Assembly: GCA_031263445.1 (NCBI GenBank)
Contig: JAISFV010000055.1
Coordinates: 1-32,491, forward strand
From: Synergistaceae bacterium
Lineage (GTDB): Bacteria > Synergistota > Synergistia > Synergistales > Synergistaceae
DNA length: 32,491 nt
Direction of reading: 5' to 3'
The position numbers and the translations under genes were made by a program. Below, in pieces: positions 26,402-32,041 of the stretch; positions within the stretch are counted from its first letter, which is position 1; each line of letters opens with the position of its first letter. The notes under the pieces are model-generated. The model had not been told where the DNA came from, searched no databases, and saw only the letters and a list, made by a program, of their open reading frames with translations.

Positions 26402-26921
26402 AGTCAGATTAATATTGGCGCTCGCGGCGGTCTTGGCGCTCGCGTTCTACATACGGAGGGACATGAACCTCATGCCTGGGCCGGCGTCTTTAGGTATGCC
26501 TGACGTGTCCGTCGAGAACCTGGACTTCCGCAGGGCGACGGGCGGCAGGAACTGGCACATCCGGGCGGCTAAGGCCGAGCACGATTCCGGCATGATCAGG
26601 GCCTTCGAAATTGAGGTAGACGTGAGCGATGTGAGTTCCGACAGGTCGATGTCCCTGAGGGCCCAGAGCGGCGAGTTCGCGGAGCGGGACTACTCCCTGG
26701 ATCTGAGGTCGCTCGACGGCACGCTTTTCCAAGACGGCAGGAGCATGGACGTCCTGGCGCCGCAGGCGAATTACGAAAGGTCACTCGACGTTTGGCGCTT
26801 TGAACAGGGCGTCGAGCTTTGGGACGATAAATCATATATCAACGGCGGGGCGGCGTCCATCGCGGGTGACGGCGTCCTGTCCATCCGGAAAGGGGCTTAT
26901 GTCTCTTGGACTGTAGAGTAG
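26388..26921 (+). CDS. lptC: LPS export protein LptC-like
   Basis: LptC is the single-pass inner-membrane protein that hands lipopolysaccharide from LptBFG to the periplasmic Lpt bridge. The 177-residue product has one N-terminal membrane segment (about 7-22, LILALAAVLALAFYI) and a periplasmic beta-jellyroll-like part with the typical W-x-[IL]-x-A-x-x-A core (NWHIRAAKAEHD near 53) and repeating amphipathic strands (SLRAQSGEFAERDYSLDL, RSMDVLAPQANYERS). GTG start at 26388; GGAGGAAAA lies about 11 nt upstream. It overlaps the next gene by 16 nt. The neighbouring LptD-like gene supports the name. Confidence 0.8.
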   Translation: MYRGKVRLILALAAVLALAFYIRRDMNLMPGPASLGMPDVSVENLDFRRATGGRNWHIRAAKAEHDSGMIRAFEIEVDVSDVSSDRSMSLRAQSGEFAERDYSLDLRSLDGTLFQDGRSMDVLAPQANYERSLDVWRFEQGVELWDDKSYINGGAASIAGDGVLSIRKGAYVSWTVE

Positions 26922-28603
26922 TAAAGGGAACGCATACGTACATACTCGTCGCGGCGGTTACGGCAGCCCTCCTGCTTTTGTCGCCGAGGTGCCTCATGGC
27001 GGCAGAAGTCAACTTGGACGCTGACAGGATCTCCTACGAGGACACGACCGGGGTCGCCACCGCAGAGGGCGACGTCAAAATTTCGAACGACGAGATTACC
27101 GTCCTAGCCCCATATATGGAGTACGACAGCTCTAACCAGAGCGTCAGGGCGGTTTCAACGCCCGACGGCGGCGTCACGCTCATGTCGGCCGGGAATAGGA
27201 TAAACGGGGAACGGCTCGACTACAACCTCACCACGCGCAGGGGAGTGTTTACGCGCCCGAACGGCAGGGTTGACGCGTTTTTCGTGAAGGGCGAGTCCAT
27301 CGAAGTCATGCCGCTCTCCGACGTGACAGGGAAAAAGGCAGCGAGCGGCAGCGAAACCGAGGATCTGGCCGCCCGCTGGAGCGGCGCGGTCATCACGACC
27401 TGTAATTATCCGCACCCCCATTACAGGCTGGAGGCCAGGGAACTCTCGGTCATTCCGGATCGCAGGGTAATAATCAGGAAGCCCAAGGTATTCTTGGGCG
27501 AGACGCTGGTTTTCACGTACCCCTTCGACTTCGTCTCGAATATAGACGGCAAATCCCGCTTGAACAAGCGGTCGGTCTTCCCGAAGATCGGGTACGAGTC
27601 CGGCAAGGGCATGGGCATAGGGATATCCGGGCCGTTCGTCTGGGATACCGGAGAACTTGACATCGAGGCCATATGGTGGAGCGAGAACATCATCGAGGGC
27701 GAGGCGTTCGTCCGGCAGCAGGTGGCACCGGGATTGACCGCCTTCGCACGGCTGGCCAGGGAACACGACAAGGACAGGGATCAGACGCGCTGGCGGCCCA
27801 AGTGGGGATTTTGGTACGATCACGGCTGGCAATTCGAGGCGGCGTGGTCCCAGAGGGAACTTGTAACGCTCGAAAAGCGCGCGGGCAGCGATTCGAGGTA
27901 CGTGGTCTGGAGAAAGCCTGAGCTGAATTTCGTAAGCCCATGGATCGACGACGCCGCATCGCATGGCAGGTACCGCTTCATGGGGAGCTGGGGGAAATAC
28001 GAGGACGTGACCTCGGGCGTCACGTCTCCTGTGGTCGAACGGTACGGCGCTGGCGTTCAGATCGAGGGTACGCTGGAGAACCAGTCGCTGAATTTTCAGC
28101 CCTTCTACAACGCCATCTACTGGTATTACGGCTATGACGCCCAGGAGTCGCGGACACAGCAGATCGCGGACGCGGTCTTGGGCGCCAGGTGGAAGCTGGG
28201 GAATTTCGACATGGAGAGCGCCTACGTCAGGAGATGGGTATGGGGGGACTCGCCGATGTCCTGGGACAGCTACGACCCGAGGGAGGACGTCTATCAGCAG
28301 GTCGCCGTCACGCTCCCCACAGGCAACCCGGATTTCTGGTGGCAGCTCGCGCTCCGGGGCGCGTACAGCGTGAAGGATGAAACGCTGGATGAGATGCTCT
28401 ACAAGGTCGTCTACAACCAGCACTGCCTGCAATGGGAGGTCATTTACAGGGACGACAGATCTGGAAACGATAACTGGATGGGCCTCAATCTCACCATCAA
28501 CGCCTATCCTGAGTCGAGCGTCCGTCTGGCCGGGACCGACCCGTTCAATCCGGCCAAGGCGCCGGACGAGTTCGTACCGGATTTCATAAAACAGTTGCCG
28601 TGA
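26906..28603 (+). CDS. lptD: LptD-like outer membrane LPS assembly protein with OstA domain
   Basis: LptD is the outer-membrane barrel that inserts lipopolysaccharide in the outer leaflet. The 565-residue protein has a signal peptide (residues 1-32, ending LMAAE), an OstA/LptA-like periplasmic domain (about 33-125, ISYEDTTGVATAEGDVKIS, the family's typical opening), and a long C-terminal part rich in aromatic residues and alternating strands (WGFWYDHGWQFEAAWSQREL) that fits a beta-barrel. It is shorter than the 750-800 residues of E. coli LptD. TTG start at 26906 is needed to include the signal peptide. A separate lptA is not in the operon, and the LptA-like domain here might compensate. Confidence 0.85.
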   Translation: MDCRVVKGTHTYILVAAVTAALLLLSPRCLMAAEVNLDADRISYEDTTGVATAEGDVKISNDEITVLAPYMEYDSSNQSVRAVSTPDGGVTLMSAGNRINGERLDYNLTTRRGVFTRPNGRVDAFFVKGESIEVMPLSDVTGKKAASGSETEDLAARWSGAVITTCNYPHPHYRLEARELSVIPDRRVIIRKPKVFLGETLVFTYPFDFVSNIDGKSRLNKRSVFPKIGYESGKGMGIGISGPFVWDTGELDIEAIWWSENIIEGEAFVRQQVAPGLTAFARLAREHDKDRDQTRWRPKWGFWYDHGWQFEAAWSQRELVTLEKRAGSDSRYVVWRKPELNFVSPWIDDAASHGRYRFMGSWGKYEDVTSGVTSPVVERYGAGVQIEGTLENQSLNFQPFYNAIYWYYGYDAQESRTQQIADAVLGARWKLGNFDMESAYVRRWVWGDSPMSWDSYDPREDVYQQVAVTLPTGNPDFWWQLALRGAYSVKDETLDEMLYKVVYNQHCLQWEVIYRDDRSGNDNWMGLNLTINAYPESSVRLAGTDPFNPAKAPDEFVPDFIKQLP

Positions 28604-29529
28604 AGCCGCTGGAAGGGTTGGAGGATCCGCAGGGGACAGTGTTCGACTTCAAGCGCTACGCCCTTCACGACGGGCCGGGCATACGCGCTTCCGTCCATCT
28701 GAAAGGCTGCCCTCTCTCCTGCCTCTGGTGCCACAACCCGGAAAGCCAGGAATTCGAGCCGCGCCCGCTTTTTCGGCCTGACCGTTGCATTGGGTGCCTC
28801 GCCTGCGTCACAGCTTGCCCCGAGGGGGCGGTGAGCGCGTCGACGGCCGGGATCAGGACGGACGCGGCGCTCTGCTCCGGCACCGGGAGGTGCGCGGACG
28901 CCTGCCCGTCAAGCGCCCGGGAGGTGTGCGGGAAAAAGGTCGGCGTAGGTGACGTGGCGCGGCAGATTTTAAAGGAGAGGGTGTTCTTCGAGCAGTCCGG
29001 GGGCGGTGTGACGCTGACCGGCGGAGAACCGCTGAGCCAGCCGGAATTCACCGTCTCGCTGCTCCGCTGGTGCAAAAGCCGCGAGCTGCACACGGCGCTC
29101 GACACGAGCGGCTTCGCCAGCCCCTCCGTTTTGAGGGAGGCGATCCCCTGGACAGATCTCTTCCTTTACGACGTAAAGACAATGGATCCGGACAAGCACC
29201 GAGAGTTTACCGGCGTGGACAACGAGGTCATCATCTCAAACCTTTCGAGCCTGGCCGCCACGGGCGCACAGATATGGGCGCGTGTGCCGTTTATCCCCGG
29301 GTTTAACTCTGACGGCGAGGGCATGAGGGCTCTCGGGAAATTCCTTTCCGGCCTCCCCTCCGTCCGCCAGGTGAACCTCTTGCCGTACCACAGCGCAGCC
29401 GAGGACAAACACAGCCGCTGGGGGATGGCGTTCAGCCTGACGGGCCTGCGTCCGCCGACCGAGCACTCGATCCGCGCAGCGGCCGCTGTCATAGAGGGCT
29501 TCGGGCTGAAGGTTGTGATCGGAGGATAA
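28600..29529 (+). CDS. Glycyl radical enzyme activase (radical SAM)
   Basis: Uses S-adenosylmethionine and a [4Fe-4S] cluster to create the glycyl radical of a partner enzyme, very likely the HypD-like enzyme at 29666. The 309-residue product has the radical SAM CxxxCxxC (CPLSCLWC, residues 34-41), an inserted two-cluster ferredoxin domain (CIGCLACVTACP near 64 and CSGTGRCADACP near 92), and the radical SAM GGEPLSQPEF segment near 141. The second cluster motif lacks one of its four usual cysteines (CSGT instead of CxxC). GTG start 28600 overlaps the lptD stop as GTGA, so it is translationally coupled to the envelope operon, not to its partner. Confidence 0.93.
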   Translation: MKPLEGLEDPQGTVFDFKRYALHDGPGIRASVHLKGCPLSCLWCHNPESQEFEPRPLFRPDRCIGCLACVTACPEGAVSASTAGIRTDAALCSGTGRCADACPSSAREVCGKKVGVGDVARQILKERVFFEQSGGGVTLTGGEPLSQPEFTVSLLRWCKSRELHTALDTSGFASPSVLREAIPWTDLFLYDVKTMDPDKHREFTGVDNEVIISNLSSLAATGAQIWARVPFIPGFNSDGEGMRALGKFLSGLPSVRQVNLLPYHSAAEDKHSRWGMAFSLTGLRPPTEHSIRAAAAVIEGFGLKVVIGG

Positions 29530-29563: not shown

Positions 29564-29593
29564 TTGCAAATGGGGAAAATCGCGAGATAATAC
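29564..29593 (+). promoter_or_regulatory. Promoter of the glycyl radical enzyme gene
   Basis: TTGCAA (29564-29569) is followed after 16 nt by GATAAT (29586-29591); TAATAC with 18 nt spacing is an alternative. The region upstream (29530-29562) is very AT-rich. This separates the enzyme gene from the activase. Confidence 0.5.
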
Positions 29594-29631: not shown

Positions 29632-29665
29632 ACGTTTCTTTATAAATACTAGGGAGGTTTCAGGC

Positions 29666-32026
29666 ATGAACGAGCGAATCGAGAGGCTTCGCAGGGAAAG
29701 TTTCGAAACACGCCCGAGTTTTTCGGCAGAGAGGGCGCTGCTGGAGACGGAATTTTACGAGAAGAACGACGGGAAATTCGCGACGCCGGTGCTGCGCGGG
29801 ATGAACTTCAAGTACATCTGCGAGCGGAAGACCATCTACATCGGCCCTGACGAGCTCATCGTGGGGGAGCGCGGCCCTCGCCCTAAGGCAGTCTCGTCCT
29901 TCCCGGAGCTGACATGCCACTCTGTCAGGGATCTGGAAATCCTGAACTCACGCGAGATGCAGAGCTATTCGGTAGCCAAGGAGGACATGGACATATACCG
30001 CGACCGCGTAATCCCGTACTGGCGCGGCCGCAGCATGAGGGACAAGGCGTTCGACAGGATGCCGCAAAAGTGGACGGATCTGTACGAGGCAGGCGCGTTC
30101 ACGGAGTTCGGCGAACAGCGCGCGCTCGGGCATACCGCGCTGGACGGGCTCATATACAGGAAGGGAATGCTCGACATCAAGCGCGACATAGCGGAGGCCC
30201 GCTCAAAGCTGGACTTCATATCGGATCCGGATGCCACCGCGAAGGACGACGAGCTGCAGGGTATGGATATCTCGTGCGACGCCTCGATCATATTTGCCAA
30301 GCGCCACGCGGATCTCGCGCAGGAGATGGCCGAGGGTGAGAGCGACCCAGCGCGCAGGGCCGAGCTGGAGAAGATAGCTTCCGTCTGCCGCTGGGTTCCC
30401 GCCAACCCGCCGCGCGACTTCTGGGAGGCGATCCAGATGTACTGGTTCGTCCACCTCGGGACGATAACGGAGCTGAACGGCTGGGACGCCATGAGCCCCG
30501 GTCACTTCGACCAGCATCTGACGCCGTTTTACGAGCGGGGACTCGCGTCCGGCACGCTCGACCGGGAGCTCGCCAAAGATCTGGTCTCATGCTTCTGGAT
30601 CAAGGTGAATAACACGCCCGCCCCTCCGAAGGTCGGCGTCACTGCGGCCGAGAGCGGCACTTACAACGACTTCACGAACATAAACCTGGCCGGCCTGCGG
30701 TGTGACGGGACAGACGGGTCAAGCGAGGTCACGGAGATCATACTCGATGTCCTGGACGAACTCAGGCTCCTCCAGCCGCAGTGCAACATCCAGGTGAGCG
30801 CGAGGACGCCGGACGGCGTGCTGAAGAAGGCCGCAAGAGTCGTGCGCCACGGCATGGGCTACCCGTCGTTCTTCAACGCAGACGTAGTGATCGAGGAGCA
30901 GATCCGGGTCGGCAAGACGCTGGAGGACGCGCGCGAAGGCGGCACGAGCGGCTGCATAGAGACCGGCTGCGCCGGCAAGGAGGCATACCTGCTGCACGGC
31001 TACCTGAACACGCCGAAGGTGCTGGAACTCGCCCTGAACGACGGCGTGGATCTGATGACTGGCAAACGCGTAAGCATAAGCACGGGGGATCCCAGTTGCT
31101 TCAAGTCATTCGACGACCTCTACGAGGCGTTCGAGCGCCAGCTCGACTACGCCGTCACGACGAAGATAGAGGTGGACAACTATCTGCGCGCCAGGTACGC
31201 CGAGTGCTTCCCCGCGACGTTCCTCTCCGTCGTGATAAGCGACTGCGTCAAGAACGGCAAGGACTATTACGCGGGCGGCCCGAGGTACAACACCGATTAC
31301 ATCCAGTGCACTGGGATCGGGACCATAACGGACAGCCTGTCGGCCATAAAGAAGCACTCCTTCGAGGAAGAGGCCGTCTCGCTTGCGAAACTCGTCGAGG
31401 TTTGCGGCAAAAACTGGGAGGGGGCGGAGGCGCTCCGCCTTTCGATGTGGAACAAGACGCCGTTCTACGGCAACGACGACGACTACGCGGACGACATCAT
31501 GCGGCGCGTGTACGGCAGCCTCTTTGACGCGATAGACGGCAGGCGCAGCATCCTCGGCCCGACTTACCACATCAACATGCTGTCCACGACCTGCCATAAC
31601 TACTTTGGCAAGATGACCGCCGCCACACCTAACGGCCGCTTCAAGGGGACGCCGATCTCCGACGGCACGTCACCGAGCCACGGTGCCGACCGCAACGGTC
31701 CGACCGCAGTGGTGAAGTCCCTCGGCAAGATGGATCAGGTGAAGTCCGGCGGCACGCTCCTGAACCAGCGCTTCCTGCCGTCGGTCTTAGCCGGCGAGGA
31801 GGGCATAAACGGACTCGTGGGCCTGATACGCTCGTACTTCAAGCTGGGAGGCCACCACGTCCAGTTCAACGTCGTGGACGAGGAGACGCTGCGCGAGGCA
31901 CAGCGCGAACCTGAATCACACAGGGGCCTCTTGGTCCGCGTCGCCGGCTACAGCGACTACTTCGTGGACCTCGATCTCTACCACCAGGAGGAGATAATCG
32001 CCCGCACCGCGCAGGAGACGGTTTGA
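29666..32026 (+). CDS. hypD: Glycyl radical enzyme, trans-4-hydroxy-L-proline dehydratase (HypD-like)
   Basis: HypD dehydrates trans-4-hydroxy-L-proline to (S)-1-pyrroline-5-carboxylate. The 786-residue product (HypD about 789) has the catalytic Cys430 in GTSGCIETGC, Glu432 after it, and the glycyl radical Gly761 in RVAGYSDYF near the C-terminus. His156, Asp274, Asp335 and Thr641 are at positions exactly 4 lower than the HypD residues I recall (His160, Asp278, Asp339, Thr645, Cys434, Glu436, Gly765), so the pocket is conserved. Choline lyase (GCVEP, about 850) and hydroxyphenylacetate decarboxylase (about 900) differ in motif and length. ATG 29666 has AGGGAGG upstream. The activase is the previous gene, 136 nt away. 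No proC is seen nearby; it would complete the path to proline. Confidence 0.88.
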   Translation: MNERIERLRRESFETRPSFSAERALLETEFYEKNDGKFATPVLRGMNFKYICERKTIYIGPDELIVGERGPRPKAVSSFPELTCHSVRDLEILNSREMQSYSVAKEDMDIYRDRVIPYWRGRSMRDKAFDRMPQKWTDLYEAGAFTEFGEQRALGHTALDGLIYRKGMLDIKRDIAEARSKLDFISDPDATAKDDELQGMDISCDASIIFAKRHADLAQEMAEGESDPARRAELEKIASVCRWVPANPPRDFWEAIQMYWFVHLGTITELNGWDAMSPGHFDQHLTPFYERGLASGTLDRELAKDLVSCFWIKVNNTPAPPKVGVTAAESGTYNDFTNINLAGLRCDGTDGSSEVTEIILDVLDELRLLQPQCNIQVSARTPDGVLKKAARVVRHGMGYPSFFNADVVIEEQIRVGKTLEDAREGGTSGCIETGCAGKEAYLLHGYLNTPKVLELALNDGVDLMTGKRVSISTGDPSCFKSFDDLYEAFERQLDYAVTTKIEVDNYLRARYAECFPATFLSVVISDCVKNGKDYYAGGPRYNTDYIQCTGIGTITDSLSAIKKHSFEEEAVSLAKLVEVCGKNWEGAEALRLSMWNKTPFYGNDDDYADDIMRRVYGSLFDAIDGRRSILGPTYHINMLSTTCHNYFGKMTAATPNGRFKGTPISDGTSPSHGADRNGPTAVVKSLGKMDQVKSGGTLLNQRFLPSVLAGEEGINGLVGLIRSYFKLGGHHVQFNVVDEETLREAQREPESHRGLLVRVAGYSDYFVDLDLYHQEEIIARTAQETV

Positions 32027-32041
32027 CAGGATTTTAAACGA

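Follow-up and report, generated by a model that had tools for sequence, protein, structure and literature searches.

A hydroxyproline dehydratase gene (hypD) in a Synergistaceae genome and its probable coupling to the oxidation of pyrroline-5-carboxylate

The HypD family consists of radical enzymes by which anaerobic bacteria degrade hydroxyproline, and in Clostridia HypD has chiefly been treated as an enzyme on the way to proline. Like HypD, HplG is a glycyl radical eliminase that acts on a hydroxyproline isomer; PDB entry 7vua is taken here to be HplG, a hydroxyproline C-N lyase. The roles of the residues of Clostridium difficile HypD (CdHypD) were described in a crystal-structure study (PMC7077986). 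The HypD proteins of commensal Clostridia are 55% identical to CdHypD, and C. scindens, one of these species, consumed hydroxyproline; the proC gene adjoins hypD in only two of four Clostridia and does not do so in C. hylemonae or C. scindens (PMC9044972). In this study a hypD gene was analysed within a 32,491-nucleotide stretch of DNA (the window), which is contig JAISFV010000055.1 of the Synergistaceae assembly GCA_031263445.1. The rest of that genome (G000) and 60 relatives were also searched. The coordinates of the main features are listed in Table 1.

Table 1. Features of the hypD region and of the P5C dehydrogenase gene carried elsewhere in the genome.
Feature	Position	Strand	Details
hypE-like glycyl radical enzyme (GRE) activase (radical SAM, 309 aa, GTG start)	28600-29529	+	TIGR02494, motifs
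Shine-Dalgarno-like gggaggt	29652-29658	+	precedes the hypD start codon; read from the sequence
hypD	29666-32026	+	ATG start, 786 aa ORF
Cys430-Ile431-Glu432 codons, CXE motif with thiyl radical cysteine	30953-30961	+	aligned to CdHypD Cys434-Val435-Glu436
Gly761 codon, glycyl radical site	31946-31948	+	RVAGYSDYF aligned to CdHypD Gly765
ORF cut by the contig end	32166-32489	-	no Pfam match; putative chemoreceptor by eye
ALDH4-type pyrroline-5-carboxylate (P5C) dehydrogenase	G000:C42:13896-15482		TIGR01236 731 bits, cut-off 613.6

When the hypD product was compared with proteins of solved structure using phmmer, the best match was C. difficile HypD 6vxc (935 bits, E 3.5e-280), and residues 3-783 aligned with chain residues 27-807 free of gaps over 781 residues; overall, the protein was approximately 50% identical to CdHypD. 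The second match, glycerol dehydratase, scored 479 bits, and HplG was a much weaker match at 412 bits. The Pfam Gly_radical domain (PF01228) was matched with 125 bits, and the score of 1115.1 bits against the NCBIfam HypD family (NF043068) was a narrow pass over the cut-off of 1100. In a maximum-likelihood tree of 37 rows, rooted against glycerol dehydratase and GREs of Synergistota as outgroups, the window gene and CdHypD fell within a 29-row clade with support of 100/100; HplG, CutC and IslA were compared with the window protein by bit score only.

The active site was examined at 13 substrate or radical positions, which were taken from PMC7077986 or the first-pass annotation, except for CdHypD F152, which was added in this analysis. 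The alignment contained 105 GRE sequences, comprising the window protein, homologues from GTDB and the Synergistales, CdHypD, glycerol dehydratase and other Synergistota GREs. All 13 residues were identical to those of CdHypD. Seven of them (H156, D274, D335, C430, E432, T641 and G761) had been reported in the first-pass annotation, and each was present as described; the other six were F148, R152, K322, S330, F336 and Y446, which correspond to CdHypD F152, R156, K326, S334, F340 and Y450. The constant offset of 4 residues that had been proposed between the two proteins was also correct, since the alignment was ungapped over its whole length; the 6vxc chain numbering includes a 20-residue tag, and removal of this tag gives the offset of 4. 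The resulting 13-residue string, FRHDKSDFCEYTG, was the same in every HypD-clade row that covered the sites, with the exception of one paralogue (L159, see below). The other GREs kept the general-motif residues Cys, Glu and Gly, together with scattered matches, but differed at most of the other sites. Since the string was constant in the HypD clade and the non-HypD enzymes differed, the agreement at the 13 sites is not due to chance.

Taken together, the active site, the tree and the curated family score provide good support for HypD membership, in agreement with the original identification of a HypD-type hydroxyproline dehydratase. The window gene is best regarded as an ordinary hypD, a new sequence in a known radical enzyme family, and its product very probably has HypD activity. 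By analogy with CdHypD, the upstream radical-SAM activase would make a radical on Gly761, which would be passed to Cys430, and Cys430 would then take a hydrogen from C5 of trans-4-hydroxy-L-proline.

The activase gene, which was not mentioned in the first-pass annotation, lies 136 bases upstream of hypD. Its product scored 318.8 bits against the GRE-activase subfamily TIGR02494 (cut-off 174) and contained a CxxxCxxC motif at residue 37, a full CxxCxxCxxxC ferredoxin motif at 63 and GGE at 141; a second ferredoxin motif, CSGTGRCADAC, was read from the sequence as one Cys short of CxxCxxCxxxC. The best equivalog was the HypD activase family NF043069, but the score of 330 bits was under the cut-off of 425, and therefore the pairing of this activase with HypD was assigned by position. 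The activase was 57-62% identical to its counterparts in related Synergistaceae (L006-L011), in which HypD was better conserved (81-83%). The start of the activase gene overlaps by 4 bases the stop of an upstream ORF (26906-28603), the product of which had an LptA model, below its cut-off, as its sole match. DNA similarity between the window and close relatives extended from approximately 29651 to 32033, limits which indicate that hypD alone is conserved in place. A sigma-70-like site between hypE and hypD (29564-29591) was discarded as being at chance level (1 found, 1.1 expected). The window genes that were tested were mostly housekeeping genes, encoding PNPase, ThrRS, Fmt, Rho and CTP synthase. 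Downstream of hypD, the ORF on the opposite strand that had been called a chemoreceptor does exist; its assignment is plausible by eye but found no match in Pfam.

The HypD homologues from Synergistota, Spirochaetota, Bacteroidota and desulfobacteria were 61-94% identical to the window protein and had the same site residues. As in the window, the activase was usually adjacent, being located beside hypD in 70 of 91 homologous loci. In contrast, the available sequence flanking hypD revealed no activase in L003, L004 and L005, a set to which the closest relatives belong. GntR-type regulators were located near hypD in 19 loci of the clade and parts of TRAP transporters were also found nearby, an arrangement that fits the catabolic use of an imported compound. 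There was no proC gene in the window, as had been noted previously, and tblastn searches with three Synergistota ProC queries found none in the available flanks of the 91 hypD loci, 51 of which extended for 3 kb or more to either side. Given this result, the absence of a neighbouring proC is the rule for this clade, and, with the similar arrangement in C. hylemonae and C. scindens, it is not unusual. One relative (G044) carries a HypD from a different branch, 50% identical to the window protein and over the HypD cut-off, in L160:4785-10661, a region that also contains the gene for its activase, a symporter-like ORF and a gene for a protein of the proline-racemase family.

The unusual feature was the genome-wide lack of hits for other enzymes of P5C metabolism. 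Family searches of this genome found nothing over the cut-off for canonical ProC, for ProA (positive in 10 of the 61 genomes) or for ornithine aminotransferase (TIGR01885; positive in 15 of 61), and proline dehydrogenase (PF01619) was not found in any of the 61 genomes, although the control matched in 8 of 14. D-proline reductase (PF09338) also gave no match, but the control genomes were likewise silent. Since no ProA, proline dehydrogenase or ornithine aminotransferase was detected over the cut-offs, HypD was the only source of P5C that the searches revealed; the absence of ProA also led to the rejection of a P5C route through ProA and ProB run in reverse. These absences do not amount to proof, since the assembly, in 200 contigs, is 93.8% complete with 3.9% contamination.

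The first-pass annotation had placed either ProC or a catabolic P5C dehydrogenase elsewhere in the genome. No canonical ProC was located, but a P5C dehydrogenase gene was found on contig 42, away from hypD. Its product is a full-length member of the ALDH4 family (TIGR01236) over the curated cut-off, the solved structure closest to it is that of the P5C dehydrogenase 4idm (551 bits), and it was the sole curated P5C consumer found in the genome. As no proline dehydrogenase was found, this enzyme must receive its P5C from another source, and HypD is the simplest candidate. P5C dehydrogenase was also present in the same-genus genome G003. In one metagenome-assembled genome of the Deltaproteobacteria (L077), hypD, hypE and a P5C dehydrogenase gene lie in a row, and that dehydrogenase is 54% identical to the contig 42 protein over the 344 residues present on its contig.

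P5C dehydrogenase was found in 25 of 42 genomes with HypD compared to two of 19 without it (Fisher p 0.0006; 61 genomes), and in 15 of 27 compared to two of 19 (p 0.002) when genomes with ornithine aminotransferase were excluded, in tests that ignore shared ancestry, count short contig-edge fragments as P5C dehydrogenase and exclude G017, in which a divergent ProC match was barely over the cut-off. Counted with the same limits, ProC showed no such association, being present in 21 of 42 genomes with HypD and 11 of 19 without it. Eight relatives with HypD, four of which were at least 90% complete, had neither canonical ProC nor P5C dehydrogenase. The oxidative route is therefore not universal, and more than one P5C sink must exist.

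The best reading of these data as a whole, with a probability of approximately 0.65, is that hydroxyproline is converted to P5C by HypD and that P5C is then oxidised to glutamate by the ALDH4-type enzyme of contig 42, instead of undergoing a ProC-catalysed reduction to proline. Both the activity of HypD and the direction in which P5C flows are what we infer from the genes that are present. The oxidative coupling would represent a modest variation on a known enzyme. For the lineage, the balance of evidence leans slightly towards HypD feeding an oxidative route in anaerobes that seemingly are without proline dehydrogenase, ProA and canonical ProC; P5C dehydrogenase would then be, in effect, hydroxyproline-catabolic and not proline-catabolic. 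No paper joining the terms hydroxyproline dehydratase and pyrroline-5-carboxylate dehydrogenase was found in a limited literature search, which is not proof of novelty.

In contrast to the Clostridium-type HypD-ProC pathway, which requires canonical ProC, this genome was found to encode only a ProC-like protein of 265 residues on contig 61, below the cut-offs. Reduction of P5C to proline by this divergent protein, either as a proline supply for an auxotroph or as a Stickland-type reduction, is possible but rather unlikely. As ProA is absent, proline auxotrophy is probable in this organism. The contig 61 protein has retained a TPGG motif as well as the nucleotide motif GTGGIA and scored best with P5C reductase models (NF005063, 183.6 bits; TIGR00112, 68.6 bits), but it was below every curated P5C reductase cut-off, that of NF005063 being 254. 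In G016, G018, G031 and G032, paralogues with 44-46% identity to it are encoded no more than 200 bases from an ornithine aminotransferase gene, a location that favours a function as P5C reductase in this subgroup; the closest paralogues examined (54-56%) instead adjoin a different GRE, and not hypD. Within the genus, G003 has HypD and P5C dehydrogenase but no ProC or ProC-like match, and G001, which also has HypD, has a ProC-like fragment only.

It is less likely still that a canonical proC gene is present in the organism but missing from the assembly, such that the Clostridium-like route applies. The incompleteness of the genome and its division into 200 contigs leave room for such a gap, and roughly half of the 61 genomes carry canonical ProC. 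However, none of three other same-genus genomes (80-93% complete) had a ProC match, there was no match in several 95-100% complete HypD-positive genomes of the family (among them G006, G010, G022, G029 and G035), and ProA was missing as well as ProC. Finally, the moderate identity to CdHypD, the narrow family score and the occurrence in at least one relative of a HypD paralogue that differs at two site residues might point to a look-alike enzyme that acts on another substrate, by the ring-opening lyase reaction of HplG or on another hydroxylated cyclic amino acid, but this is very improbable given the intact site residues, including Ser330, Tyr446, Asp335 and Phe336, the far lower HplG score and the hydroxyproline consumption by C. 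scindens, the HypD of which is 55% identical to CdHypD.

A second hypD fragment, 85% identical to the window gene, was found at G000:C31:1-810 and was rejected as a paralogue, since the same contig carries the end of a second rpoC gene, which is 72% identical to the rpoC gene on contig 32. Bacteria normally have one rpoC, and contig 31 therefore most likely belongs to a second, related organism that contaminates the bin. The L137 locus (G000:C31:1-3406) contained, besides the hypD fragment and rpoC end, an ORF that appeared SixA-like by eye. In principle this caution covers any single contig, including contig 42, yet P5C dehydrogenase was also found in G003.

The HypD paralogue that lacked the common site string was encoded in one genome only (G032), at L159:6639-9044, in a region (L159:846-11124) that corresponds to G032:C1:2985000-3000000. 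This second HypD-family enzyme was 52% identical to the window HypD and scored 1072.6 bits, just under the cut-off of 1100. It carried the changes F152T and H160S at otherwise invariant sites, and the carboxylate- and amine-contacting residues were kept. A neighbouring gene encoded an L-piperidine-6-carboxylate dehydrogenase (763.8 bits, cut-off 730), and the other neighbours encoded an activase, a member of the proline-racemase family and a DapB-like reductase. As a lead, the paralogue may be a glycyl radical enzyme that dehydrates hydroxypipecolate, the analogue with a six-membered ring; no paper on an enzyme of this type was found in the literature search. It is more novel than the oxidative coupling of the window HypD and suggests that the HypD fold may also be adapted to a larger ring.

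A different type of cluster was observed in loci L138 to L142 (G018, G022, G023 and G029), in which a ProC-like protein, 48-56% identical to the contig 61 protein, was encoded together with a different GRE, the closest solved relative of which was 8id1, and its own activase. TRAP transporter genes were present in some of these loci; a GntR regulator gene and, by eye, a YbaK-like gene were present in others. The arrangement suggests that the product of this GRE may be reduced by the ProC-like enzyme.

The origin of the hydroxyproline was also considered. The first-pass annotation had specified collagen-type hydroxyproline, a conclusion that goes beyond what sequence can show, as plant proteins also contain trans-4-hydroxyproline. 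The nearest records were Synergistaceae metagenome-assembled genomes, the isolate codes of which we take to suggest termite or cockroach gut. If the organism is of insect-gut origin, its hydroxyproline is as likely to come from the hydroxyproline-rich proteins of plant cell walls as from collagen. If the oxidative reading is true, HypD in a group of gut and sediment anaerobes would supply glutamate instead of proline, and the use of hydroxyproline would be predicted from genomes by way of P5C dehydrogenase and not only from an adjacent proC gene.
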